Assembly (NCBI RefSeq): GCF_024806835.1
Contig: NZ_JANTYU010000001.1
Location: 1 to 64,000 of the forward strand
DNA length: 64,000 bases
DNA from: Xanthomonas sp. 3793
GTDB lineage: Bacteria > Pseudomonadota > Gammaproteobacteria > Xanthomonadales > Xanthomonadaceae
Direction: 5' to 3'
Each line of letters starts with the position of its first letter. Position 1 is the first letter of the stretch. The notes under the pieces were generated by a model. The model did not search any database. It was not told the origin of the DNA and saw only the letters and a program-made list of their open reading frames with translations. This document shows, piece by piece, positions 16,480-29,999 of the stretch. The translations under genes were made by a program, and so were the position numbers.

Positions 16480-16544
16480 GTAGGAGCGCACGTGGGCGCG
16501 ACGGGCCTTACCGGTAAAGCCGTCGCGCCCCGGTGCGCTCCTGC
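16480..16544. repeat. Palindromic TAGGAGCGCAC element, copy 1
   Basis: Arms 16480-16503 and 16521-16544 are 24-base inverted repeats with three mismatches, around a smaller palindrome (TTACCGGTAA). The same type of element lies at 29926-29999. It follows bolA and could end its transcription. The remainder of 16545-16741 holds no supported gene. Confidence 0.7.
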
Positions 16545-16741
16545 GCAAGAGGACATTGCAAAGTTGGGCAGCGCCGGAGCGACCGACCGATTGGCAAGCC
16601 ATCCTCCGCTCCCGATCCATGAGCAGGCCCAGCCATCCGCAACCGTGATCGCCGTTCACCTTCGTTTGTGGAGACGTGGGTGCGGGTTTGTTGCGTCGCA
16701 GCACATTCATTCACGCATTCATCACTTGCAGATGCTTGATC

Positions 16742-16755
16742 TGTAAGCGTTTTCA
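16742..16755. promoter_or_regulatory. LacI-type operator O1
   Basis: TGTAAGCGTTTTCA is a near-palindrome with the central CG typical of LacI/GalR-family operators. It lies about 90 bases before the lacI-family gene. Its exact reverse complement is O2 at 16788, and a close relative is O3 at 21031. Confidence 0.8.
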
Positions 16756-16787
16756 CGGTTGTGAAGATAGGGGTTTACGCCTGCTTA

Positions 16788-16801
16788 TGAAAACGCTTAC
16801 A
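16788..16801. promoter_or_regulatory. LacI-type operator O2
   Basis: TGAAAACGCTTACA is the exact reverse complement of O1, with centres 46 bases apart. It lies 43 bases before the regulator start, a position suited to autorepression, possibly by looping between the two sites. Confidence 0.8.
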
Positions 16802-16844
16802 GTCCGCGCCAGTTTTGGGAAGTCGGTCGCGGAGGGCGACACGA

Positions 16845-17867
16845 ATGGCCAAGGGTGCGGTCACCATCAAAGATGTCGCTCGGGAAGCGCAGGTCTCTGT
16901 CGCCACCGTGTCGCGTGCGCTCAATGGGCACGACAACGTTGCCGGGCCCGTGCGTCAGCAGGTCATGGACGTGGCCGAACGGCTGCGCTACAGCCCGCAT
17001 GCGGCAGCCCGTAGCCTGAGCAGCCGGCGGTCGCAGACCCTGGGCGTGGTGCTGCCCGATCTGTACGGCGAATTCTTTTCCGAGTTGATCCGCGGCATCG
17101 ACGGCGCGGCGCGCGCTGCCGGCCAGCACCTGCTGGTGTCCAGCTACCACGGCGACCCTGAAGCCCAGGGCAGGGCGCTGCGGTCGATGCGCGGGCGCGT
17201 CGACGGCCTGCTGGTGCTCTCTCCGTATGCCGAGCAGCCGGGATTTCTCACCGACAACCTGCCGCAGTCGCTGCCCACCGTGCTGATCAATGCCCATCTG
17301 CCCGGCGCCGGTTATCCGGTGCTGAGCATCGATGACCATGCCGGCGCCATGGCCATGACCGAGCACCTATTGGGTGCGGGCCATCGGCGCATTGCCTTCA
17401 TCGGCGGGCCTTCGCTCAATTTCGATGCGCGCGAACGCCTGCGCGGTTTCCGCGACGCGATTGCCGGATTCGGCGACCAGGCGCAGGGAATCGAGTATGC
17501 CGGCGACTTCGACGAAGCCTCCGGGCATCGCGCCGGGCTGGCGATGCTGGCCGCCGGCGCATTGCCCGATGCGGTGTTTGCCGCCAACGACATGACCGCG
17601 CTCGGCTGCCTGTACGCGTTTGCGCAGGCCGAGGTGTCGGTACCTGGCGATGTGGCATTGGCGGGCTTCGACGACATTCCGCTGGCGCGCTTCGTCCACC
17701 CGGCGCTGACCACGATGCGGGTCAGCATCGCGCGTCTGGGCGAACAGGCGATGACCCGATTGATGCGGCTGGTGGAACTGCCCGGCCATGACGACGGTAG
17801 CCGCCAACTGCTGACGCCCGAGCTGGTGATACGGACTTCCTGCGGCGCCGGCGAGTCCGGCCCCTGA
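16845..17867 (+). CDS. LacI/GalR-family transcriptional regulator
   Basis: A 340-residue repressor with an N-terminal helix-turn-helix (VTIKDVAREAQVSVATVSRA, residues 5-24), a hinge helix (PHAAARSLSSRRSQ) and a periplasmic-binding-like effector domain (from about 60). Specificity elements include FAANDMTALGCLYAFAQ and PGDVALAGFDDIPLARFVHP. The start at ATG 16845 has GGAGGG about nine bases upstream. Two matching operators lie just upstream and a third before the glycosidase gene at 21059, so it probably controls the whole carbohydrate locus. The inducer is unknown. Confidence 0.92.
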   Translation: MAKGAVTIKDVAREAQVSVATVSRALNGHDNVAGPVRQQVMDVAERLRYSPHAAARSLSSRRSQTLGVVLPDLYGEFFSELIRGIDGAARAAGQHLLVSSYHGDPEAQGRALRSMRGRVDGLLVLSPYAEQPGFLTDNLPQSLPTVLINAHLPGAGYPVLSIDDHAGAMAMTEHLLGAGHRRIAFIGGPSLNFDARERLRGFRDAIAGFGDQAQGIEYAGDFDEASGHRAGLAMLAAGALPDAVFAANDMTALGCLYAFAQAEVSVPGDVALAGFDDIPLARFVHPALTTMRVSIARLGEQAMTRLMRLVELPGHDDGSRQLLTPELVIRTSCGAGESGP

Positions 17868-17970
17868 CTTTCGCGGACGTTCTGTCCGCTCCCGCTGCTC
17901 CCCCGCAGCGGTCGTTCCTGCTGGTTTGCAACACCACAACAACAATCTGTACCGATCCCTGGAGGGACCA

Positions 17971-20958
17971 ATGCGCCACCACCACCCCCATTCCGCCCGC
18001 CCGGCGCGCAAGCTGCTCAGCTGTGCCCTGGCCAGCTGCCTGCTGCTGGGCGCCGCGCCTGCATTTGCGCAGAGCACTGCCGCGACCATCCGCGGCCAGG
18101 TCAGCGTCGACTCCGCTCCCGCCGCCCAGGCGCAGGTGACGGCCACCAACTTGGCGACCGGCCTGACCCGCACCGTACAGGTCAGCAACGGCGGTTACTC
18201 GGTCGGCGGCCTGCCGCCGGGCTCGTACCGCATCGACGTCACCGCCAATGGTCAGACCAGCTCGCAGAATGTGACCGTGCAGGTCGGCCAGACGGCGACC
18301 TTGAACCTGGGCGTCGGCGGCGAGCCGGCCACGGCCGAAGCTGGTAACGCCACCACGCTGGACGCGGTGCAGGTCAAGGCGCCGCCGGTGCTGGTGGAAA
18401 CGCGCACCTCCGAGAACGCCACGTACATCTCCAACGTGCAGATCCAGAACCTGCCGCGTGCCACGCGCAACTTCCTGGAACTGGCCGACACCGTGCCGAA
18501 CGTGCAGTTCACCCGCGATGCCAACGGCACCACCAAGGTCCGTTCGGGCGCCACCTCGGCCGAAGGCACCAACGTCTATATCGACGGCGTGAGCCAGAAG
18601 AACTACGTGCTCACCGGCGGCGTCAGCGGCCAGGACTCCAGCCGTGGCAACCCGTTCCCGCAGTCGGCGATCGGCGAATACAAGGTCATCACCTCCAACT
18701 ACAAGGCCGAGTTCGACCAGGTCAGCGGCGCGGCCATCGTGGCCTCGTCCAAGTCCGGCACCAACGATTTCCACGGCAGCTTCTTCTGGGACACCAGCAA
18801 CGACGGCTGGCGCGAAGAGAGCCCGCTGGAGAAGAAGGCCGGCGTGCGCGACGACTTCGAGGAGACCCAGTACGGCGCCACCTTCAGCGGCCCGATCCTC
18901 AAGGACAAGGCGCATTTCTTCATCGCCTATGAGGCCAAGGAATACACCACCCCCAACGTGGTGATCCCCGGTTCGATCTATTCCGACCGCGTCGACCAGT
19001 TGCCTGCGCAGCTGCAGCCGCTGGTTGCCACCTACAGCACCCCGTTCAAGGAAGACCTGTACTTCGGCAAGATCGACTGGACCATCGGCGAGAACAACCT
19101 GTTCGAGCTGAGTGGCAAGTACCGCAAGGAAGACGAGCTCAACGATGTCGGCGGCACCTCGACCCTCGAGCACGGCAGCATCAACGGCCAGGAAGAAAAG
19201 CGCGCCAACCTGCGTTGGCAGTACAGCGGTGCCAACTTCCTCAACGAAGCCAACCTCAGCTACGAGAGCGCGTTCTGGAACCAGGCGCCGATCAACAACG
19301 GCACCGGTTATGTGCTGAGTTATGCGCCAGTGCGCGGCATCGAGGACGAAGTGCTGTCCGCGGGCGCCGGCAGCAGCTTCCAGCGCAAGGGGCAGAAGGG
19401 CTGGACCTTCCAGGACGACCTGACCTTGAACAGCCTGGAATGGCACGGCGCGCACACCGTCAAGATGGGCGTGAAGTTCAAGAGCATCGATCTGGATTCG
19501 ACCCAGTTCAATCCGGCCAACCCGCAGTACTACTACAACATCCTCGGCGATCTCGAAACGCCGTACCGGGTGCGCTTCGGTGCGCCGCTGGTCGAAGGTG
19601 GTGGTTCGGTGGTGTCCAAGAACAAGCAGTACGGCATCTATCTGCAGGACGACTGGGAGGTCAACGAGCACTGGACCCTCAACCTGGGCGTGCGCTACGA
19701 CTACGAAGAAACCCCTGCGTTCCTGGACTTCGTCACGCCGTCCGATGTGGCCGGTGCGTTGCAGAACTGGCCGAACCTGCAGAATGCCAACTACGACATC
19801 AACAACTTCATCAGCACCGGCAACAACCGCAAGGCGTTCAAGAATGCCTGGCAGCCGCGTCTTGGTGCCTCGTACGACCTGTTTGGCGACCAGGCCCACG
19901 TGATCTACGGCGGTGCCGGCCGTGCATACGACCGCAACATCTTCGATTACCTGGCGCTCGAACAGCTCAACAATTCGTTCAAGTCCTATAGCTACTACTT
20001 CACCAACCCCAACGCCCAGAACGGCCAGGCCTGCCTGGGCGACCCGTGCACCGCATGGAATCCGGCCTACAACACCCAGGAAGGGCTCGATGCACTGGCG
20101 GCGACCAGCGCTGGCGGCGGCGGGCGCGAAATCTATCTGATCGACAACAACATCAAGACCCCGTACTCCGACCAATTCAGCATCGGCATGCGCAACATGG
20201 TGCCGCTATGGGGCCAGGACTGGTTCACCGACGTGACCCTGAGCCGCATCGAAAGCCACGACGGTTTCGCGTTCGTGCGCGGTAACCGTCTGCCGGACGG
20301 CTCGTTCTTCCTGCCGGGTACCACCTCCGGTTCGCCGAACGACGGCCCGGACGGCTATAGCGCGATCGTGCTGGGCACCAATGGCGTGGAGACCCGCAAC
20401 AACCAGCTCGCCCTGCAGGTCGAAAAGCCCTTCGATGAGGAATCCGGTTGGGGCCTGACCGTGGCCTACACCTATTCCGATGCCAAGGAGAACCGCCAGT
20501 TCGGCGAGCACTACGCGCTGGATCGCGAGCGCGTCCAGGACTACGGCTGGCGCGAGGCCGGTGGCATCGCCAAGAACCGTCTGGTGGTCACCGGCATCTA
20601 CGAGCTGCCGTACGAGGTCAAGCTGTCCGGCAAGCTGTCGCTGGCCAGCCAGACCGCGCGCTACGGGCAGAACTGCGTGGCCGGCAACGACCAGTGCTAC
20701 ATCGTCCAGTTCAAGCCGGACGGCACGCTGGGCTACAAGGAGTTCAGCATTGCGGCCAATAAAGAATGGGATACCGGCGGCGGTGTCAAATTCAACGTCC
20801 GTGCGGATATCCTCAACGTGTTCAATTGGGTGAACTACGCCGCCTTTAACGGCGAGACCGGGACACTCGGTGACTTGAACACGGCTTACGGCACGCCAAC
20901 CGGCGTGCTGGCATCGCCGATGCGGACCTTCCGGCTGGCCTTTGGCCTGAACTGGTGA
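17971..20958 (+). CDS. Oar-like TonB-dependent receptor
   Basis: An outer membrane transporter of 995 residues, with a signal peptide ending at about 34 (APAFAQ). A carboxypeptidase-regulatory-like beta domain follows (about 38-115), then a TonB-box-like TTLDAVQV, a plug domain (NVYIDGVSQKNYVLTGG, YKAEFDQVSGAAIVASSKSG) and a 22-strand barrel. The C-terminus ends in the aromatic FGLNW. The start has GGAGGG upstream. The gene lies between the LacI regulator and the glycosidase operon, which suggests uptake of an oligosaccharide. The gap of 103 bases to lacI has no clear operator, so it may be read from the lacI promoter. Confidence 0.92.
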   Translation: MRHHHPHSARPARKLLSCALASCLLLGAAPAFAQSTAATIRGQVSVDSAPAAQAQVTATNLATGLTRTVQVSNGGYSVGGLPPGSYRIDVTANGQTSSQNVTVQVGQTATLNLGVGGEPATAEAGNATTLDAVQVKAPPVLVETRTSENATYISNVQIQNLPRATRNFLELADTVPNVQFTRDANGTTKVRSGATSAEGTNVYIDGVSQKNYVLTGGVSGQDSSRGNPFPQSAIGEYKVITSNYKAEFDQVSGAAIVASSKSGTNDFHGSFFWDTSNDGWREESPLEKKAGVRDDFEETQYGATFSGPILKDKAHFFIAYEAKEYTTPNVVIPGSIYSDRVDQLPAQLQPLVATYSTPFKEDLYFGKIDWTIGENNLFELSGKYRKEDELNDVGGTSTLEHGSINGQEEKRANLRWQYSGANFLNEANLSYESAFWNQAPINNGTGYVLSYAPVRGIEDEVLSAGAGSSFQRKGQKGWTFQDDLTLNSLEWHGAHTVKMGVKFKSIDLDSTQFNPANPQYYYNILGDLETPYRVRFGAPLVEGGGSVVSKNKQYGIYLQDDWEVNEHWTLNLGVRYDYEETPAFLDFVTPSDVAGALQNWPNLQNANYDINNFISTGNNRKAFKNAWQPRLGASYDLFGDQAHVIYGGAGRAYDRNIFDYLALEQLNNSFKSYSYYFTNPNAQNGQACLGDPCTAWNPAYNTQEGLDALAATSAGGGGREIYLIDNNIKTPYSDQFSIGMRNMVPLWGQDWFTDVTLSRIESHDGFAFVRGNRLPDGSFFLPGTTSGSPNDGPDGYSAIVLGTNGVETRNNQLALQVEKPFDEESGWGLTVAYTYSDAKENRQFGEHYALDRERVQDYGWREAGGIAKNRLVVTGIYELPYEVKLSGKLSLASQTARYGQNCVAGNDQCYIVQFKPDGTLGYKEFSIAANKEWDTGGGVKFNVRADILNVFNWVNYAAFNGETGTLGDLNTAYGTPTGVLASPMRTFRLAFGLNW

Positions 20959-20963
20959 GGACC

Positions 20964-20993
20964 CGACCGCCCTGGCGCAGGCCAGGGCGGTCG
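20964..20993. terminator. Strong hairpin after the TonB-dependent receptor gene
   Basis: CGACCGCCCTGGC (20964-20976) pairs perfectly with GCCAGGGCGGTCG (20981-20993) around GCAG. No T-tract follows. It may attenuate readthrough into the glycosidase operon or protect the receptor mRNA 3' end. Confidence 0.65.
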
Positions 20994-21030
20994 AACTCGG
21001 CGCTTGGATAGGGTAGGTTGGCGTGCGGGA

Positions 21031-21044
21031 TGTAATCGATTACA
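21031..21044. promoter_or_regulatory. LacI-type operator O3
   Basis: TGTAATCGATTACA is a perfect 14-base palindrome, identical to O1 at 11 of 14 positions. The shared form is TGTAA-N-CG-N-TT-N-CA. It lies only 14 bases before the ATG at 21059, so a bound repressor would sit at or just after the promoter. Confidence 0.82.
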
Positions 21045-21058
21045 CAAGTGGGGGGCGG

Positions 21059-22678
21059 ATGAACAGGGGCAACACATCGCGTTGGTTGATCGTTCCATTC
21101 ATGCTGGGAGCGCTGTTGCTGGCGTCCTGCAAGCAGGCCGAGGAGCCCAAGGTCGCTGAAAAAAAGGCACCCGTAAAAGTGATCCTGATCGAAGCGCAAA
21201 TCCCCCCCAAGCCGGTCAAACCGCCATTGCCGCCCCTGTTTTCGGACATCGAGCGACGCACCTTCCAGTTCTTCTGGGACACCACCAACGAACTCAACGG
21301 ACTGGCGCCGGATCGATTTCCATCGCGTCCCTTCGCCAGCATCGCCTCGGTGGGGTTTGCGCTGACCGCGTATCCGATCGGCATCGAAAACGGCTGGGTC
21401 AGCCGCAATCAGGCGATCGATCGCACCCTGACCACACTGAAATTCTTCCGCGATGCGCCCATGGGGCCGCAGCGGACCGGTAGGGCCGGCTACAAGGGCT
21501 TCTACTATCACTTTCTGGATATGCAGCAGGGCAACCGCTACGACAGCTGGGTCGAGCTGTCGAGCGTGGACACCGCGCTGCTGATGATGGGCGTGTTGTT
21601 CACCCAGTCGTATTACGACGGCGACGACCCGCGCGAAAAAGAAATCCGCCAGATCGCCGATACGCTGTACAAGCGCGTGGACTGGCGCTGGCTGCAGCAA
21701 CGCGCACCACTGATCTCGATGGGCTGGTTCCCCGAGAGCGGCTTCATCGACCACGACTGGATGGGATACAACGAAGCGATGATGCTGTACATCCTCGCGC
21801 TGGGCTCGCCTACCCATGGCGTGGACCCGGAGGCGTGGACCAGCTGGACGCGGACCTACAACAACGACTGGGGCGTCTACCAGGGGCAGGAGTACCTGTC
21901 CTTCGGCCCGCTGTTCGGCCACCAGTACAGCCATGTCTGGATCGACTTCCGCGATATCCAGGACCAGTACATGCGCGAACGCGGCATCGACTATTTCCTC
22001 AACAGCCGCCGCGCCACCCTGGCCCAGCGCGACTACGCCATCGACAACCCGATGAAGTGGAAGGACTACGGCGAGAACGTCTGGGGCCTGACCGCTGGCG
22101 ACGGCCCGCAGAACACCAGCCAGGAATACCGTGGCGAACAGCGCCAGTTCCGCCATTACTCCTCGCGCGGCGCCGGCCTGCGCGAGAACTTCGACGACGG
22201 CACCATCGTGCCGTCGGCGGCGATCTCCTCGATCGTATTCGCCCCGGAAGTAGTGATCCCGGCCACCGAAGAGATGCACAAGCGCTATGGCGACTTCCTG
22301 TATTCCAGCTACGGCTTCCTGGATTCGTTCAACCCCAGCTTCAACTACGACATCCCGCTCAAGACCGGGCGCATGGTGCCGGACCGCGGCTGGGTGGCCA
22401 GCGACTACATCGCCATCGACCAGGGCCCGATCCTGGCGATGATCGCCAACTACCAGAACGAATTCGTCTGGACCGTGATGAAGAAGAACCCCTACATCCG
22501 CGCCGGTCTGGAACGCGCCGGCTTCACCGGCGGCTGGCTCACCCCCGAGGGCGAGCCGCAGCCGTTGCCGCAAAAGGACGAGCAGAAGGCCGCCGCACGC
22601 TCGCTGGGTATGGCCGAATCGCGTGCCGCCGCCGCCCAGGCCCAGCAAGACCCCTCGCAACGCCAAAAACCCGAGTAA
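21059..22678 (+). CDS. Glycoamylase-like (GH144-type) lipoprotein, candidate beta-1,2-glucanase
   Basis: A 539-residue protein with a lipoprotein signal peptide (LLLASC, C23), a Lys/Pro-rich linker and an (alpha/alpha)6 barrel of the glycoamylase-like family (COG5368/PF10091). Blocks seen are IERRTFQFFWDTTN, GWFPESGFIDHDWMGYNEAM and LFGHQYSHVWIDFRDIQDQY, then ENVWGLTAGDGPQ. Family members include endo-beta-1,2-glucanases of GH144, so a beta-1,2-linked or cyclic glucan is the best guess. The C-terminal 50 residues are Gln/Ala-rich. It heads an operon with sugar importer genes under operator O3. Substrate is inferred from the family only. Confidence 0.85.
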   Translation: MNRGNTSRWLIVPFMLGALLLASCKQAEEPKVAEKKAPVKVILIEAQIPPKPVKPPLPPLFSDIERRTFQFFWDTTNELNGLAPDRFPSRPFASIASVGFALTAYPIGIENGWVSRNQAIDRTLTTLKFFRDAPMGPQRTGRAGYKGFYYHFLDMQQGNRYDSWVELSSVDTALLMMGVLFTQSYYDGDDPREKEIRQIADTLYKRVDWRWLQQRAPLISMGWFPESGFIDHDWMGYNEAMMLYILALGSPTHGVDPEAWTSWTRTYNNDWGVYQGQEYLSFGPLFGHQYSHVWIDFRDIQDQYMRERGIDYFLNSRRATLAQRDYAIDNPMKWKDYGENVWGLTAGDGPQNTSQEYRGEQRQFRHYSSRGAGLRENFDDGTIVPSAAISSIVFAPEVVIPATEEMHKRYGDFLYSSYGFLDSFNPSFNYDIPLKTGRMVPDRGWVASDYIAIDQGPILAMIANYQNEFVWTVMKKNPYIRAGLERAGFTGGWLTPEGEPQPLPQKDEQKAAARSLGMAESRAAAAQAQQDPSQRQKPE

Positions 22679-22681
22679 TCC

Positions 22682-24064
22682 GTGCGCCTTTTGAAACTGT
22701 TGATGTTGGCCGCCGCCCTGTGTGCAGGTGCGGCGGGATGTGACCGCTCCGATCCCGCCAAGACCACCGTGCGCTTCTGGGCCATGGGCAAGGAGGCCGA
22801 AGTGGTTGCCGAACTGGTGGCCGACTTCGAGAAGCAGAACCCGGACATCCAGGTCGATGTGCAGAACATCCCGATGACGGCGGCGCACGAGAAACTGCTG
22901 ACCGCCTTCGCCGCCGACGGCTTGCCGGACGTGTGCCAACTTGGCAACACCTGGCTGCCGGAGTTCGCCCTGCTGGATACGCTGGAGCCGATGCAGCCGT
23001 ACGTGGCGCGGTCCAGGATCGTCGATCCGCAGGATTATTTCCCCGGCGTGTGGGACACCAATCTGGTCGATGGCACGCTGTATGGCGTGCCGTGGTATGT
23101 GGACACCCGGCTGCTGTTCTATCGCAAGGATCTGTTGCGCGAGGCCGGTTACAACGAAATGCCCAAGACCTGGGCCGAGATGGAACAGGTGATGGCGGCG
23201 ATCAAGCGCAAGGTCGGCCCCGACCGTTATGCCATCCTGATGCCGCTCAACGAGTTCGAGCAGCAGCTGTCGTTCGCGCTGCAGCAGGACGACCGCCTGC
23301 TGCGCGACCACGACAATTACGGCAATTTCCGCGGAGAAGGCTTCCGCAAGGCGCTGGGCTTCTACGACGGCATGTATCAGAAGGGTTGGGCGCCGAAGGT
23401 CTCCGAGACCCAGGTCTCCAACGTCTGGTACGAGTTCTTCAACGGTTACTACGCGTTCTACCTGTCCGGCCCGTGGAACGTGCGCGAGTTCAAGCTGCGC
23501 CAGCCGCCGGGCATGGAAGGCAAGTGGGGCACCGCGCCGCTGCCGGGACCCAACGGCCTGGGCGCGGGCATTGCCGGCGGCTCCAGCCTGGTGATCTTCA
23601 AGTCGTCGCAACACAAGGATGCCAGCTGGAAGCTGATCGAATACCTGTCGCAGCCCACGGTACAGGCGCGCTTCCACGCCATCATCGGCGACCTGCCGCC
23701 GCGTCGTAGCACCTGGAAGCTGCCATCGCTGGCCAACGACGAACTGGCGCACGCCTTCGGCGACCAGCTGGAGCGGGTCAAGGCCACGCCCAAGGTGCTG
23801 GAGTGGGAGCGCATCGTGCAGGAAATGCGCCTGGTGACCGAGCGCGTGGTGCGCGGCGGTCAATCGCACGAGGCCGCCGTGCAGGAACTGGACAAACGCG
23901 TGGACGAGATACTGGCCAAGCGCCGCTGGATCTTCGAACAGGAGGGCGGGCATGTCGGCCCCGCTGGTGAATCCACTTCACCTGCTGTTGGGGCAGGCGC
24001 ACCACCAGACGCACCACCAGCCGCGACGCCGGCCGCAGCAGCGGACAAGGAGGCTGCACGATGA
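22682..24064 (+). CDS. Sugar ABC transporter substrate-binding lipoprotein
   Basis: A 460-residue family-1 extracellular solute-binding protein. The GTG start gives a lipoprotein signal peptide with lipobox AGC (C20). The fold is recognisable from VRFWAMGKEAEVVAELVADF, GTLYGVPWYVDTRLLFYRKD and YYAFYLSGPWNVREFKL. It probably binds oligosaccharides released by the upstream hydrolase. The stop overlaps the first permease gene (ATGATGA). The C-terminus has an extra Pro/Ala-rich tail of about 40 residues not usual in the family. Confidence 0.9.
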   Translation: MRLLKLLMLAAALCAGAAGCDRSDPAKTTVRFWAMGKEAEVVAELVADFEKQNPDIQVDVQNIPMTAAHEKLLTAFAADGLPDVCQLGNTWLPEFALLDTLEPMQPYVARSRIVDPQDYFPGVWDTNLVDGTLYGVPWYVDTRLLFYRKDLLREAGYNEMPKTWAEMEQVMAAIKRKVGPDRYAILMPLNEFEQQLSFALQQDDRLLRDHDNYGNFRGEGFRKALGFYDGMYQKGWAPKVSETQVSNVWYEFFNGYYAFYLSGPWNVREFKLRQPPGMEGKWGTAPLPGPNGLGAGIAGGSSLVIFKSSQHKDASWKLIEYLSQPTVQARFHAIIGDLPPRRSTWKLPSLANDELAHAFGDQLERVKATPKVLEWERIVQEMRLVTERVVRGGQSHEAAVQELDKRVDEILAKRRWIFEQEGGHVGPAGESTSPAVGAGAPPDAPPAATPAAAADKEAAR

Positions 24065-24945
24065 TGAAGCGCAATTCCGTCGCCGGCTGGGTCTTCGCCG
24101 CACCGTCGATCCTGGTGCTGGGCATGTTCTTCGGCGTGCCGGTGTTCGCCGCGCTGGTGCTCAGCGTCACCGACTTCGATCTGTACGCATTGGCCGACAG
24201 CAGCCACCTGCGCTTCGTCGGCCTGGGCAATTACATCGACCTGCTGCAGACGCCGCTGTTCTGGAAGTCGTTGTGGAACACCACCTACTTCGTGTTGCTG
24301 GGTGTGCCGATGTCGATCGGCGTGTCGCTCGGTGCGGCCTTGCTGCTCAACGCCAAGGCCTCGCGCTTCAAGGCGCTGTTCCGCACCGCCTTGTTCGCGC
24401 CGGTGGTGACCACGCTGGTGGCGGTGGCGGTGATCTGGCGCTACCTGTTCCATATCAAATATGGCCTGGTGAACTTCGGCCTGAGCCATCTGGGCATCGC
24501 CCCGATCGACTGGCTGGGCGATCCGCGCTGGGCGATGCCGACCATCATGCTGTTCGCGGTGTGGAAGAACTTCGGCTACAACATGGTGATCTTCCTGGCC
24601 GGGCTGCAGGCGATCCCGCAGGACCTGTATGAGGCCGCGCGCATCGATGGCGCCTCGCGCTGGAAGCAGTTCCTGCATATCACCCTGCCGATGCTCGGCC
24701 CGGTGCTGATGGTGGTCGGGGTGATCACCATCTCCGGCTATTTCCAGCTGTTTGCCGAGCCCTACGTGATGACCCGCGGCGACCCGCTGCAGAGCACCGT
24801 CAGCGTGCTGTATTTCATGTTCGAGGAAGGCTTCAAATGGTGGAACCTCGGCCGCGCGTCGGCGGTGGCGTTCCTGTTGTTCCTGATCATCCTGGCGGTG
24901 ACCACCGTGATGCTGCGCTTCGGCCGCAAGAAGGACCTGATATGA
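24061..24945 (+). CDS. Sugar ABC transporter permease (MalF/UgpA type)
   Basis: A 294-residue inner membrane permease with six helices. The EAA loop (EAARIDGASRWKQFLHITLP) contacts the ATPase. It belongs to the CUT1 carbohydrate importer family. Its start overlaps the binding-protein stop and its stop overlaps the second permease start. No ATPase gene follows in this operon. Confidence 0.92.
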   Translation: MMKRNSVAGWVFAAPSILVLGMFFGVPVFAALVLSVTDFDLYALADSSHLRFVGLGNYIDLLQTPLFWKSLWNTTYFVLLGVPMSIGVSLGAALLLNAKASRFKALFRTALFAPVVTTLVAVAVIWRYLFHIKYGLVNFGLSHLGIAPIDWLGDPRWAMPTIMLFAVWKNFGYNMVIFLAGLQAIPQDLYEAARIDGASRWKQFLHITLPMLGPVLMVVGVITISGYFQLFAEPYVMTRGDPLQSTVSVLYFMFEEGFKWWNLGRASAVAFLLFLIILAVTTVMLRFGRKKDLI

Positions 24946-25778
24946 GTCGTGATGTCGGCCAATCGCGCTGGAACGGCGTGCTGATCAACGGCGGCTTGCT
25001 GGTGCTGGCCTTGATCAGCCTGGCGCCGCTGCTATGGATGCTGTCGGTGTCGTTCATGCCCACCGGCGAGGCCAGCCGGTTTCCGCCGCCGATGCTGCCG
25101 TCGGCGTTCACCACCGCCAACTACCACGAGCTGTTCGCGCGCACCGGCATGGCGCGCAACTTCGCCAACAGCCTGCTGGTGTCCGGGCTGATCACGTTGG
25201 GCTCGCTGCTGATCAACACCATGGCCGGCTATGCCTTCGCCAAGCTGCAGTTCGTCGGCCGCGAGCGCATCTTCAAGATCCTGATGGCGGCGTTGGTGAT
25301 TCCGGCACAGGTGGCGATGCTGCCGCTGTTCCTGCTGATGAAGCAGCTGCACCTGGTCAACAACATCGGCGGGGTGGTGGTGCCGGCACTGGCCACCGTG
25401 TTCGGCATCTTCCTGGTGCGCCAGTACGCGCGCAGCATTCCCGACGAGTTGATCGAGGCCGCCCGCATCGACGGCGCCAGCGAGATGCGGATCTTCTTCC
25501 AGATCGTGCTGCCGATGCTCAAGCCGGTGCTGGTCACCCTGACCATCTTCACCTTCATGGGCTCGTGGAACGATTTCATGTGGCCGCTGATCGTGTTGAC
25601 CGACCAGGAGCAATACACCTTGCCGGTGGCGCTGGCGGCGTTGTCGCGCGAGCACATCATGGACGTGGAATTGATGATGGCCGGCGCGGTGGTGACGGTG
25701 ATTCCGGTGCTGCTATTGTTCCTGGCGCTGCAGCGTTACTACATCCAAGGTCTTCTGCTGGGGAGTGTGAAGGGGTGA
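24942..25778 (+). CDS. Sugar ABC transporter permease (MalG/UgpE type)
   Basis: The second CUT1 permease, 278 residues with six membrane helices. The EAA motif is EAARIDGASEMRIFFQIVLP. The ATG overlaps the upstream permease stop, and the stop overlaps the GTG of the next gene. With the preceding gene it should form the membrane heterodimer, energised by an ATPase encoded outside the window. Confidence 0.92.
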   Translation: MSRDVGQSRWNGVLINGGLLVLALISLAPLLWMLSVSFMPTGEASRFPPPMLPSAFTTANYHELFARTGMARNFANSLLVSGLITLGSLLINTMAGYAFAKLQFVGRERIFKILMAALVIPAQVAMLPLFLLMKQLHLVNNIGGVVVPALATVFGIFLVRQYARSIPDELIEAARIDGASEMRIFFQIVLPMLKPVLVTLTIFTFMGSWNDFMWPLIVLTDQEQYTLPVALAALSREHIMDVELMMAGAVVTVIPVLLLFLALQRYYIQGLLLGSVKG

Positions 25779-28700
25779 AACCAGTGTTCCTGCGACTGTG
25801 TGCCATGGCCGCTTTCGTCACGTCTGCGGGCGCGGCGCAGGCGCAGGAGCGCGTGCTCGACGGCTTCAACGACATCGGCGCCTGGCGTCTGGTGGTATCC
25901 AACCAGGTCAGCGGCTCGCTGCGCCCGGTGGCAACGCCCTCCGGTGGGCATGCGCTGTGCCTGGATTACAACTTCAATGGCGTGTCTGGCTACGTCGGCA
26001 TCCGCCGCACACTGCCGCTCGACTACCCCGAAAACTATCGCATCGGGTTTTCGCTGCGTGGCGAATCGCCGTCCAACGATCTGCAGCTCAAGCTGATCGA
26101 TGCTAGCGGCGACAACGTGTGGTGGGTCAATCGGCCGGGCTTCAATTTCCCGAAGAACTGGACCACCTTCAACTACCGCAAGCGCAACATCGAAAAGGCC
26201 TGGGGACCGGGTGCGGACAAGCAGCTGCGCAGCAGCGCCGATGTCGAGTTCACCATCTACAACAAGTTCGGCGGCAAGGGCACGGTGTGCTTCGATCGCC
26301 TGACGCTCACCCCATTGCCGCCGGAAGACACCTCGCCGCTCAAGGCCGAGGCGATCACCGACACGGCGCCGGCGTTGGAACAACGCCTGGCCGATGGCAA
26401 GCCCGACACCTTCTGGCTCAGCGGCGCGGTGAAGCAACAGACCGTCACGCTGGATCTGGGCAAGGTGCGCGAATTCGGGGGCGCGGTGGTGCAGTGGGTG
26501 CCCGGCCTGCAGGCCTCGCAGTACGCAGTGCGTGCATCGGCCGATGGCCGCAGCTGGCGCGATCTGCGCACCGTCACCGCCGGCGCCGGTGGGACCGACT
26601 GGCTGGCACTGCCGGACACCGAAGCGCGCTACCTGCGTTTCGACCTGAAGGACGGCCCCAACTGGCGCTACGGGATCAAAGAGGTCCAGCTGCAGCCGCT
26701 GGCATTTGCGGCAACGCCCAACGACTTCATCAAATCGCTGGCCGGTCAGTTGCCGCGCGGCAGTTATCCACGGGGGTTTTCCGGCGAGCAGCCGTACTGG
26801 ACCATCCTGGGTCTGGATGGCGGCACCGAGCAGGGCCTGATCGGCGAGGACGGCGCGGTGGAAGTGGGCAAGGGCGGCTTCAGTATCGAGCCGTTCGTGG
26901 TCACCGGCGGCAAAGTATTGCACTGGTCCGACGTCAGCAGCGAGCAAAGCCTGCAGGACGATTACCTGCCGATCCCCAGCGTCGACTGGCATCACGACCT
27001 GATGAACCTGCGCGTCACCGCGTTCGTGCAGGGCACCCCGGATCAGGCGCAACTGGTCGCCCGCTATCAGCTGCACAACACCGGCAAGCAGGCGCGCGAC
27101 TTCACCCTGGCGTTGGCAGTGCGGCCGTTCCAGGTCAACCCGCCGGCGCAGTTCCTCAATACCCTGGGTGGCGTCAGCCGGATCGAACAACTGGCGGTGG
27201 ACGGCGCGCAGGTCAGCGTTAACGGCAAGCCGCGCGTGTTCGCCGTGCAGCGGCCGGATGCCGGCTTTGCCAGCGCCTTCGATAGCGGTATGGATGTCAG
27301 CCATCTCACCGCCGCCACGCCGCCCACCGTCACCCAGGTCAAGGACGAAACCGGCCTGGCGTCGGGCGTGCTGCTGTATCGCTGGACGCTGGAACCCGGC
27401 CAGAAACGTGAAGTGGCCTTGGTGATTCCGCAGACCGGTGCTGCGCAACTTCCGGCCGGCTTCGATGCCGAGCAGGCGCAGCGGCAGGTGGCCCAGCAAT
27501 GGCGTGGCAAGCTCGATCGCGTGCGCATCAGCGTGCCGGCCGAGGGCAAGCCGGTGGTCGATACGCTGCGTACCGCGCTGGCGCACATGCTGATCTCGCG
27601 CATCGGTCCGCGTCTGCAGCCGGGCACACGCTCGTACTCGCGCAGCTGGATCCGCGACGGCGCAATGATCTCCGAAGGCCTGCTGCGGCTCGGCCGCGAA
27701 GACGTGGTGCGCGACTACGTCGACTGGTTTGCGCCGTATCAGTTTGCCGACGGCATGGTGCCGTGCTGCGTGGACGACCGCGGCAGCGACCCGGTGCCGG
27801 AAAACGACAGCCATGGCGAGCTGATCTACAACATCGCCGAGTACTACCGCTACACCGGCGACAGGCCGTTCCTGGAGAAGATGTGGCCGCATGTCGCCGG
27901 TGCCTTCGACTACATGGAAAAGCTGCGCGCCAGCGAGCGCACCGAAGACAACTTCATGCGCAACCCGGCCTTCTACGGAATGATGCCGGTGTCGATCAGC
28001 CACGAGGGCTATTCGGCCAAGCCAGTGCATTCGTACTGGGACAACTTCTGGGCACTGCGAGGTTACAAGGACGCCACCCTGCTGGCCGGCGCCCTCGACA
28101 GGCCGGAGGACGTCACCCGTTTCAGCGCTGCCCGCGACGAATTCAGCGGCGACCTGATCGCCTCGCTGGGTGCGGCGGTGCGTGAGCACAAGCTCGATTT
28201 CCTGCCCGGTTCGGCCGAGCTCGGCGATTTCGATGCGACCTCGACCACCATCGCGCTGACGCCGGGCGGCGAGCAGCAGCGCCTGCCGCAGGACCTGCTG
28301 GCCAACACCTTCGAACGCTATTGGAAAGAGTTCTCCGACCGTCGCGACGGCAAGCGCGAGTGGAAGGACTACACCCCGTACGAGTGGCGCAACGTCGCCG
28401 CGTTCGTGCGGCTGGGCTGGCGCGAGCGCGCCTGGGACGCGACCGCATTCTTCTTCAAGGATCGCGCACCGCAGCCCTGGAATCAGTGGGCCGAGGTGGT
28501 CTCTCGCACGCCGCGCACGCCGTTCTTCGTCGGCGACCTGCCGCATGCCTGGGTGGCATCGGATTTCGTGCGCTCGGTATTGGACATGTTCGCGTACATG
28601 CGCGAGTCGGATCAGAGCATCGTGATCGCCGCCGGCACGCCGACGCGCTGGTTCGAAGGCAAGGGCATCGGCATTGCCGAATTGCGCACCCCGTACGGCC

Positions 28701-28942
28701 GCCTCAACTACACCTTGCAGCGCACCGAAAAGCAGCTGTCGCTGCAGTTGCAACCCGGCCTGCTGATGCCGCCAGGTGGCGTGGTGTTTGTCTGGCCGTA
28801 TCAGGGCGAACCCGGCAAGGCCAGCGTCAACGGCGAAAGCGTGGATTGGCAAAATGGCGAGCTGCGGATCCAGCAGATGCCGGCCACCGTGCAGATCGAT
28901 GTGCCCGGCGCGGTGCGGCGGGCCGAGCGCGCCACGCAGTGA
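25775..28942 (+). CDS. Exported six-hairpin glycosidase candidate with two beta-sandwich modules
   Basis: A 1055-residue protein with a signal peptide (about 1-24, ending AAQA), starting at a GTG that overlaps the permease stop. Residues about 25-165 resemble a carbohydrate-binding jelly roll (LDGFNDIGAWRLVVSNQ). Residues about 175-300 resemble an F5/8 type C module (DGKPDTFWLSG to RYGIKEVQLQPL). The C-terminal half is an (alpha/alpha)6 glycosidase-like domain with YSRSWIRDGAMISEGLLRLG (about 619-638) and PENDSHGELIYNIAEYYRYT. Acidic residues near E676 and E682 are possible catalysts. Exact family and substrate are unassigned; context suggests glucan side-chain or oligosaccharide trimming. 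Confidence 0.82.
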   Translation: MKPVFLRLCAMAAFVTSAGAAQAQERVLDGFNDIGAWRLVVSNQVSGSLRPVATPSGGHALCLDYNFNGVSGYVGIRRTLPLDYPENYRIGFSLRGESPSNDLQLKLIDASGDNVWWVNRPGFNFPKNWTTFNYRKRNIEKAWGPGADKQLRSSADVEFTIYNKFGGKGTVCFDRLTLTPLPPEDTSPLKAEAITDTAPALEQRLADGKPDTFWLSGAVKQQTVTLDLGKVREFGGAVVQWVPGLQASQYAVRASADGRSWRDLRTVTAGAGGTDWLALPDTEARYLRFDLKDGPNWRYGIKEVQLQPLAFAATPNDFIKSLAGQLPRGSYPRGFSGEQPYWTILGLDGGTEQGLIGEDGAVEVGKGGFSIEPFVVTGGKVLHWSDVSSEQSLQDDYLPIPSVDWHHDLMNLRVTAFVQGTPDQAQLVARYQLHNTGKQARDFTLALAVRPFQVNPPAQFLNTLGGVSRIEQLAVDGAQVSVNGKPRVFAVQRPDAGFASAFDSGMDVSHLTAATPPTVTQVKDETGLASGVLLYRWTLEPGQKREVALVIPQTGAAQLPAGFDAEQAQRQVAQQWRGKLDRVRISVPAEGKPVVDTLRTALAHMLISRIGPRLQPGTRSYSRSWIRDGAMISEGLLRLGREDVVRDYVDWFAPYQFADGMVPCCVDDRGSDPVPENDSHGELIYNIAEYYRYTGDRPFLEKMWPHVAGAFDYMEKLRASERTEDNFMRNPAFYGMMPVSISHEGYSAKPVHSYWDNFWALRGYKDATLLAGALDRPEDVTRFSAARDEFSGDLIASLGAAVREHKLDFLPGSAELGDFDATSTTIALTPGGEQQRLPQDLLANTFERYWKEFSDRRDGKREWKDYTPYEWRNVAAFVRLGWRERAWDATAFFFKDRAPQPWNQWAEVVSRTPRTPFFVGDLPHAWVASDFVRSVLDMFAYMRESDQSIVIAAGTPTRWFEGKGIGIAELRTPYGRLNYTLQRTEKQLSLQLQPGLLMPPGGVVFVWPYQGEPGKASVNGESVDWQNGELRIQQMPATVQIDVPGAVRRAERATQ

Positions 28943-29919
28943 CGCCTGCGCCTTGGCCGGGACGGGCAGGGCCGCAACGGCGTTGCGCCAGCCTGGGTGC
29001 CGTCGTCGTCGCACTGGCGGTGTGCTGCGCACACGCGCAGGCAGGCCAGCGGCGTCAAGCTGGGCCATCGCCCGCTGCCGTGCAGTCAAGGCAGGGCGGC
29101 GCTACGGCTGCCGGCGACCGGGCAGGGCGGGCAGTTTCAGTTCCGTCTGCGCGCGGACTGACCCTGGTCACGCTGAACCTGCATCACGATCGCGAAGACT
29201 GGCCCGCGCGCCGCGCCTACATCGCCAAGGAACTCAAGCAACTGGCGCCGGATGTCATCGCCTTGCAGGAGGTCATCGAGCGGCGCGGCAGCGTGGAAAA
29301 CCAGGCTGCCTGGCTGGCGCGCAAGCTGGGGTACGAGGTGATCTTCGCCTCGGTCGATCCTGCCGGCGCCCCCAAGCGCTACGGCAATGCGTTACTCAGC
29401 CAGCGCAAGGTGCTGGCGCGGCATCAGCGCCTGCTGCAACCGCTGGACGACTACCGGGTTGCCGCGCATCTGCAGGTGGACGTGGATGGCCAGCCGGTCA
29501 ATGTCTACGTCACCCATCTCAACGAACGCGCCGATGCGCGCGGTACCGCAACGCGCACGCGCCAGGTCGGGGACCTGCTCGACTTCATTGCTGCCACCAG
29601 CGCGCAGGCGCCGGTGGTGATCGCCGGGGATTTCAATACTGCCGCCGACGCGCTGGATCTGGAGGCGCTACGCAAGGGCTATGGCGACAGCTATGGCAGC
29701 GTGCACCGCAACAGCGATGCCTCGGTCAGCACCTTGAATCTGCATGTCTTCGACACGCCGGCGCGGATCGACCACGTCTTCTTCCAGCAGAACCGCCTGC
29801 TCGCCCGCGAGGCCCGCATCCTGTTCGATACGCCTTACGCCGAGGGCCGCTGGGCATCGGATCACTACGGTGTGTGGGTACGCTTGCAGCTGGCGCCCGA
29901 TCAGCCAGCTGCCCCGTAA
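28939..29919 (+). CDS. Exported endonuclease/exonuclease/phosphatase-fold protein
   Basis: A 326-residue protein. A GTG start overlapping the upstream stop (GTGA) yields a signal peptide of about 36 residues ending AHAQA. A low-complexity stretch follows, then an EEP domain from about 74. Family motifs are LVTLNLHHD, APDVIALQEV (metal-binding Glu), YVTHLNERADARG, VVIAGDFNTAADA and ASDHYGVWVRL (catalytic His). Possible substrates are phosphodiesters or phosphate-substituted glycans or lipids. As the last gene of the carbohydrate operon it may remove a phosphorylated substituent, which is inference. Confidence 0.83.
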   Translation: MTPAPWPGRAGPQRRCASLGAVVVALAVCCAHAQAGQRRQAGPSPAAVQSRQGGATAAGDRAGRAVSVPSARGLTLVTLNLHHDREDWPARRAYIAKELKQLAPDVIALQEVIERRGSVENQAAWLARKLGYEVIFASVDPAGAPKRYGNALLSQRKVLARHQRLLQPLDDYRVAAHLQVDVDGQPVNVYVTHLNERADARGTATRTRQVGDLLDFIAATSAQAPVVIAGDFNTAADALDLEALRKGYGDSYGSVHRNSDASVSTLNLHVFDTPARIDHVFFQQNRLLAREARILFDTPYAEGRWASDHYGVWVRLQLAPDQPAAP

Positions 29920-29925
29920 CGCCAT

Positions 29926-29999
29926 CGTCGTAGGAGCGCACCCGGGCGCGACTCGCACTATCGATAACGCCCGTCGCGCCCAGGTGCGCTCTTACGATG
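29926..29999. repeat. Palindromic TAGGAGCGCAC element, copy 2
   Basis: Arms 29926-29952 and 29973-29999 are 27-base inverted repeats with three mismatches. They carry the same TAGGAGCGCAC...GTGCGCTC core as 16480-16544. It fills the space between two convergent genes and may serve as a transcription end for both. Confidence 0.75.

Follow-up and report, generated by a model that had tools for sequence, protein, structure and literature searches.

The first 64 kb of contig C1 in the 5.2 Mb genome of Xanthomonas sp. 3793, here called the window, carry eight genes on the forward strand (16845–29919, from the list of open reading frames and Pfam) that very probably form a carbohydrate utilization locus with a TonB-dependent receptor (CUT locus) dedicated to beta-1,2-glucans. 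A receptor, a degradative enzyme, an inner-membrane transporter, and a sugar regulator are encoded together, as is characteristic of CUT loci. The degradative genes are an endo-beta-1,2-glucanase of glycoside hydrolase family 144 (GH144) and a multi-module glycosidase, named GHx here. The original prediction, made from the DNA letters alone, had counted seven genes; its same-strand gene set and the families it named hold, with the count corrected to eight. The ATGA/GTGA overlaps that it described are real at four junctions, where 4-base overlaps connect the last five genes (solute-binding protein/permease 1, permease 1/permease 2, permease 2/GHx, and GHx/EEP-superfamily gene), whereas the GH144 gene is separated from the solute-binding protein gene by 3 bases. 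The genes are as follows.

16845 to 17867, + strand: LacI-family regulator (Pfam LacI 54.5 bits, Peripla_BP_3 123.6 bits; ATG at 16845)
17971 to 20958, + strand: Oar-like TonB-dependent receptor (Pfam OMP_b-brl_4 170.6 bits, TonB_dep_Rec_b-barrel 52.7 bits, CarboxypepD_reg 44.1 bits)
21059 to 22678, + strand: GH144 endo-beta-1,2-glucanase with lipoprotein-type signal (PF10091 302.1 bits; 8XUL 1201 bits)
22682 to 24064, + strand: solute-binding lipoprotein (by eye), ortholog of Xac-MalE (3UOR) and relative of Lin1841 by sequence matches
24061 to 24945, + strand: ATP-binding cassette (ABC) permease 1 (BPD_transp_1 60.9 bits)
24942 to 25778, + strand: ABC permease 2 (BPD_transp_1 77 bits, scored on a longer frame from 24837; ATGA start)
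25775 to 28942, + strand: GHx, multi-module glycosidase of 1055 residues with signal peptide (by eye), from profile, alignment, and fold comparison
28939 to 29919, + strand: EEP-superfamily phosphodiesterase/nuclease-like protein (PF03372 92.2 bits; motifs NLH, LQE, THLN, GDFN, and SDHY present)

The evidence for the substrate begins with the GH144 protein, presumably a lipoprotein with the lipobox LLLASC (by eye). Its GH144-like assignment, for which the original prediction had proposed a hidden Markov model (HMM) check of 21059–22678, was borne out by PF10091, which scored 302.1 bits where the cut-off is 27. The protein matches PDB entry 8XUL (XCC2207) over almost its whole length and is near-identical to it (1201 bits, the next relative scoring 199 bits), and the residues E239, F286, and Y367 that define the published SGL clan are all present. 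Published work is cited here from open-licence texts, supplementary files aside, and statements about a paper refer to that text. XCC2207 is XcSGL, a GH144 enzyme that hydrolyses beta-1,2-glucan, with 3.85 U/mg on beta-1,2-glucan alditol and no activity on the other glucans in the part of Table 1 considered here, and its structure was solved with a heptasaccharide bound (PMC12102758). An assignment of both hydrolases to another polymer had been named as the outcome that would contradict the beta-1,2-glucan proposal. For the GH144 protein it is excluded, because the near-identical ortholog has published beta-1,2-glucanase activity; GHx has received no family assignment.

The importer points the same way. 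The solute-binding protein is near-identical to 3UOR (945 bits), followed by Lin1841 (233 bits) and the acarbose/maltose protein GacH (124 bits), so that, the X. citri ortholog itself aside, Lin1841 is the nearest solved relative with a known ligand. 3UOR is Xac-MalE of X. citri, and its designation as putatively maltose/trehalose-binding (PMC7676653) would make the operon a maltose/trehalose system. We consider this very improbable: the same source lists the specificity as 'Unknown', the structure is listed as apo (PMC13084667), Lin1841 is by far the closer relative, at 233 versus 124 bits for GacH, and the GH144 ortholog is inactive on the other glucans in the part of the table cited above (PMC12102758). 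As Lin1841, the binding subunit for the beta-1,2-glucooligosaccharides Sop3-5 (PMC12369401), is the next solved relative, sequence kinship favours sophoro-oligosaccharides as the cargo of both Xac-MalE and the protein of the window.

The association of these genes is conserved in relatives. At least 585 relatives of GHx were confirmed in the genome collection, and the best 80 of these define the loci compared here. GH144 was found in 78 of the 80, the solute-binding protein in 78, permease 1 in 78, permease 2 in 79, the receptor in 72, and LacI in 70 (as the compared loci are kin, they do not represent independent events). The two exceptions for GH144 are contigs 4.5 and 5.4 kb in length. Genes of glucose catabolism also occur nearby, with glk in 35 loci, edd in 27, and zwf in 21, and an ABC ATPase gene is present in 37, one of which (L117) has a match of only 30% identity that may not be an ortholog. 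In L115 and L142, zwf and the ATPase gene enclose the gene for a GH1 beta-glucosidase in which no obvious signal peptide was seen by eye; a GH1 gene adjoins lacI in L181. The same operon is found in four genomes of another class, presumably alphaproteobacteria (L177, L178, L179, and L181, the last without a receptor match); the ATPase gene adjoins GHx in L177 and, by sequence likeness alone, in L181. A fifth carrier of that class, G615, has GHx at a contig end (L180). The beta-1,2-glucan substrate originally proposed is thus well supported by the activity of XcSGL, the kinship of the binding protein with Lin1841, and the glucose-catabolic neighbours in relatives. As a separate observation, a gene for a tryptophan-halogenase-type flavoprotein (PF04820) separates the receptor gene from GH144 in eight loci, with 663 bits in L074 and identification by likeness of the first residues in the other seven (L038, L042, L070, L186, L187, L188, and L190).

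None of the eight locus proteins matches the ABC ATPase family in Pfam. A candidate for the importer's missing part is encoded elsewhere in the same genome, and its location emerged from LacI-type operators, three of which lie in the locus.

16742 to 16755, + strand: LacI-type operator TGTAAGCGTTTTCA (motif scan), found upstream of lacI in most of the Xanthomonas loci among the 80
16788 to 16801, - strand: second operator, an inverted copy of TGTAAGCGTTTTCA, between the first operator and lacI
21031 to 21044, no strand assigned: operator TGTAATCGATTACA, a perfect palindrome, 14 bases upstream of the GH144 start codon

Position 16742, where the original prediction began the locus, is the first base of an operator. 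For lacI itself, a TTG at 16815 upstream of the ATG is also in the open frame. A scan of the window with up to two mismatches gave six matches (three places, both strands) against 1.8 expected, a number reached by 2 of 100 shuffles. An exact search for TGTAAKCGNTTWCA over the entire genome gave one place beyond the window, C1:105447, and the backwards control gave none. This distant site lies between a leftward zwf gene, followed by glk and edd, and a rightward gene for an MsmK/UgpC-type ATPase, all families being confirmed by profile and the UgpC subfamily scoring 481.6 bits versus 432. The sequence TGTAATCGTTTTCA was present in nine of nine genomes of the genus that were searched, and is flanked by zwf and the ATPase gene in the genome studied here and in three of four other loci (L218, L235, and L236).

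The 80 loci together span 1.76 Mb and hold 147 operator matches, of which 143 fall upstream of lacI, the receptor gene, GH144, the ATPase gene, zwf, or glk, in upstream windows that amount to 80 kb, or 4.6% of the bases, and were drawn after the site positions had been seen. A site is present in 71 of the 80 loci, and a reversed control motif gave no match in them; in the four loci of the other class, all three matches are upstream. We infer that a LacI repressor links the operon and the ATPase gene through common operators, with zwf-glk-edd probably under the same repressor, and that the MsmK-type ATPase completes the importer. The ATPase proposal is new, as are the operators before lacI and GH144 and the distant one between zwf-glk-edd and the ATPase gene.

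Besides the kinship of the compared loci, several observations weigh against this reading. The TGTAATCGTTTTCA site of L219 (G791:C1:311782) adjoins neither zwf, the ATPase gene, nor any gene of the locus. A looser pattern has extra sites in all nine genomes of the genus, and its backwards control matches in two of the nine; because such sites occur elsewhere in every one of these genomes, other LacI regulators may share the operator core and might act in its place at zwf and the ATPase gene. In a second family (f12), only four of the 15 chosen loci carry an upstream operator; of the 11 matches in them all, 6 are in other places. Finally, the receptor is only 34–56% identical in relatives outside Xanthomonas and is sometimes duplicated, so its cargo is not fixed by the comparison. 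Two extra operator-like sites in the genome studied here, at C2:600618 and C6:78832 (TGTAAACGTTTTCA and TGTAACCGTTTTCA), are perhaps for other LacI regulators.

The second hydrolase, GHx, is 98% identical to the GHx of Xanthomonas pisi. Its description as a three-module glycosidase understated the architecture, which comprises a CBM11-like module, an F5/8 module, a beta-sandwich, an (alpha/alpha)6 barrel, and a C-terminal beta part.

25847 to 26326, + strand: module 1, a CBM11-like beta-sandwich, with the CBM11 fold found by fold comparison
26375 to 26674, + strand: module 2, F5/8 type C (CBM32-like; Pfam 57 bits, residues 201–300)
26711 to 28903, + strand: catalytic part, with a beta-sandwich, an (alpha/alpha)6 barrel (about residues 590–940), and a C-terminal beta part

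The HMM check that had been suggested for 25775–28942 thus yielded the F5/8 match at 57 bits, and the catalytic part passed no Pfam or NCBIfam cut-off. Among its matches up to E = 1, PF00723 (Glyco_hydro_15) was absent, and the GH133-like GDE_C profile (amylo-alpha-1,6-glucosidase) gave 19.0 and 19.7 bits, below the Pfam cut-off of 21. By hhalign, GHx aligned with the GH15 profile, the sole family so compared, at a probability of 96.2 (set of 17 loci minus the short frame L201); E907 fell on the GH15 base glutamate, and the region of the acid was gapped, with E744 proposed for that role. R627, D628, E744, and E907 are invariant in alignment A1. Two further alignments were built: for A2, 54 of the 80 loci were examined, four were dropped for a stop in the matched stretch and two by choice, and 48 were used; A3 holds 38 of these 48. 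Fold neighbours at like Z include GH116 and GH94. The catalytic part is predicted to be of the GH15-like six-hairpin type, and GHx is probably a new glycosidase family, set apart by the Pfam and NCBIfam cut-offs and with invariant catalytic candidates. A paralog at 31–33% identity that has the F5/8 domain and no CBM11-like module occurs in varied surroundings in L046–L055 and L074; in L074 it adjoins GH144 and GHx.

GHx is strictly coupled to GH144. In a sample of 250 genomes of the order, a GHx ortholog was present in 59, all of which have GH144, and 25 more have GH144 without GHx. In 198 genomes of the family, 98 have GHx, again all with GH144, out of 107 with GH144. These tallies are per genome; both genes lie on one stretch in 78 of 80 named loci. 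In the larger sample, 65 genomes had matched GHx, from which G032 and G211 (distant paralog only) and G174, G179, G198, and G248 (F5/8 module or short stretch) were left out; in the smaller, 100 had matched, and leaving out G032 and G211 gave 98. GH144 was counted at more than 200 bits for PF10091, which leaves out the partial G717 protein (118 bits) and proteins of about 2,900 residues at 70–85 bits. Distances of GHx and GH144 correlate with r = 0.90 across 43 chosen loci (best blast stretch per protein).

The tie of GHx to the cyclase OpgD is looser. OpgD (PF04349) is present in 84 of the 198 genomes: 76 with GHx and 8 alone, with GHx alone in 22 and neither in 92. Among the GH144 carriers, both are present in 76, GHx only in 22, OpgD only in 4, and neither in 5 (p = 0.043, uncorrected for kinship); a smaller set of 54 genomes of the family, sampled first, gave a cleaner picture (37, 2, 0, and 15). 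OpgD without GHx occurs in seven genomes of genus g285 and in G645. G032 and G211 have kept the receptors, GH144, the solute-binding protein, and a permease gene but lack both OpgD and the GHx ortholog, and G769, from the genus to which these two belong, carries GHx and no OpgD. No PF04349 match was found in the five GHx carriers of the other class, in a search that also included five genomes of the window's order known beforehand to be without OpgD. The operon also occurs in several f12 genomes that do not have GHx (L189, L190, L192, and L193). Because the operon exists without GHx and GHx exists without OpgD, GHx is an add-on to the beta-1,2-glucan operon, not tied to home production, and scavenging fits as well as recycling as the source of the glucan. 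The genome studied here encodes an OpgD/MdoG homolog (658 bits, C9:80939–82378) and a frame of 2,896 residues, weakly matched by PF10091 (C6:173322–173948), which by its size we take to be a cyclic glucan synthase; makers of beta-1,2-glucan thus likely coexist with the degrader.

These data bear on what GHx cleaves. Our leading guess, a tentative one, is a GH15-like exo-glucosidase with an inverting mechanism, whose target may be the alpha-1,6 link of alpha-1,6-cyclised beta-1,2-glucan. On the cyclic glucan of X. campestris (16 glucoses), GH144 would leave an alpha-1,6 remnant that stalls beta-glucosidases, and GHx would remove it, completing the reuse of own or neighbours' glucan. The tie to OpgD within GH144 carriers is weak, G769 and the OpgD carriers without GHx break it, the five carriers of the other class lack PF04349, and the fold neighbours GH116 and GH94 act on beta-linkages, all of which count against this guess. 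The broader proposal that GHx founds a new family breaking the alpha-1,6 link, with which Xanthomonadales and some other proteobacteria (probably alphaproteobacteria) eat the anti-immunity glucan of pathogens under a regulator coupled to the Entner-Doudoroff route, is doubtful in our view. Alternatively, GHx might trim the GH144 products ahead of their import, either as an exo-glucosidase specific for beta-1,2 links or by releasing sophorose. This is likewise only a tentative option, since E907 aligns with the GH15 base glutamate, and the oligosaccharide importer with a cytoplasmic GH1 enzyme already does this job in some relatives. It is unlikely that GHx debranches or strips another sugar (e.g. 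a side-chain glucose or a plant sophoroside) in a locus serving plant beta-glucosides, given its strict coupling to an endo-beta-1,2-glucanase.

For the locus as a whole, we propose the following route. The Oar-like receptor would take the glucan or its fragments across the outer membrane, the GH144 lipoprotein would cut beta-1,2-glucan to short sophoro-oligosaccharides, and secreted GHx may clear what GH144 leaves uncut. The Lin1841-like binding protein and the two permeases would import the products, powered by the MsmK-type ATPase encoded elsewhere. A cytoplasmic beta-glucosidase would then release glucose for glucokinase and the Entner-Doudoroff route, with the LacI repressor coordinating the operon with the ATPase gene, and probably also with zwf-glk-edd, through common operators.

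The remaining components are more peripheral. The Oar-like character of the receptor, as originally described, agrees with its OMP_b-brl_4 (170.6 bits) and CarboxypepD_reg (44.1 bits) matches, and the reported lack of a SusD-like partner was confirmed, as none of the eight proteins matches the SusD family in Pfam. By gene order, it is probably the counterpart of XCC2208 of X. campestris, in which a canonical plug domain has been reported to be absent. The EEP-superfamily protein is probably exported (signal by eye) and accessory. Its gene is found in 27 of the 80 loci (15 Xanthomonas and 12 Stenotrophomonas) and is fast-evolving (65–93% identity), and the protein could strip phospho-substituents off the glucan or be a nuclease. 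Similar inverted repeats, GTAGGAGCGCAC...GCGCTC, lie at both ends of the locus (16480–16545 and 29925–29995, by eye) and resemble interspersed palindromes.

The cyclic glucan of X. campestris is reported to be vital for infecting model plants (PMC11228985), a reference title in the same paper names suppression of the plant immune response, and the enzyme making the glucan was published in 2024. In the open-licence literature, no pathway for breakdown and reuse of this glucan was found, nor any text that treats the locus as one for beta-1,2-glucan or that describes GHx or the regulon, although any of these may be in print elsewhere. The locus offers a full candidate pathway for this purpose. 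It also provides a proposed ligand for the solved Xac-MalE, a candidate ATPase, and a probable new glycosidase family, and the predicted regulon extends beta-1,2-glucan use to central glucose catabolism.

Several known systems resemble parts of this locus. XcSGL (XCC2207, 8XUL) is near-identical to the GH144 protein and has the same clan residues, but its paper characterizes the enzyme alone (PMC12102758); operon, importer, and regulator come from the present analysis. Compared with GH15 enzymes (glucoamylase, glucodextranase, and dextran dextrinase), GHx shares the beta-sandwich and barrel, the W-x-RD motif, and, in the profile alignment, the position of the base glutamate, but has no Pfam GH15 match and passes no family cut-off. 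The lin1839-1841 genes of Listeria innocua and SGR_2422-2427 of Streptomyces griseus likewise combine a sophoro-oligosaccharide-binding protein, ABC genes, and a beta-glucosidase (GH3 or GH1), with a beta-1,2-glucanase homolog also in S. griseus (PMC12369401). Being Gram-positive, however, these systems are without a TonB-dependent receptor; they have GH193 or a phosphorylase instead of GH144, and the text makes no mention of GHx. The sux and other CUT loci of Xanthomonas share the TonB-dependent receptor, degradative enzyme, inner-membrane transporter, and regulator, whereas the present locus has a bacterial glucan as substrate and an ABC importer, and is not among the CUT loci named in the text of PMC1790865. 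Finally, the LacI-family regulons GluR and BglR of Caulobacter are comparable: zwf-pgl-edd-glk is under control of the LacI type there, and paralogs serve beta-glucoside operons (PMC4052901, whose main text does not mention Xanthomonas). Caulobacter uses separate regulators, whereas in the system described here one operator type spans both gene sets.

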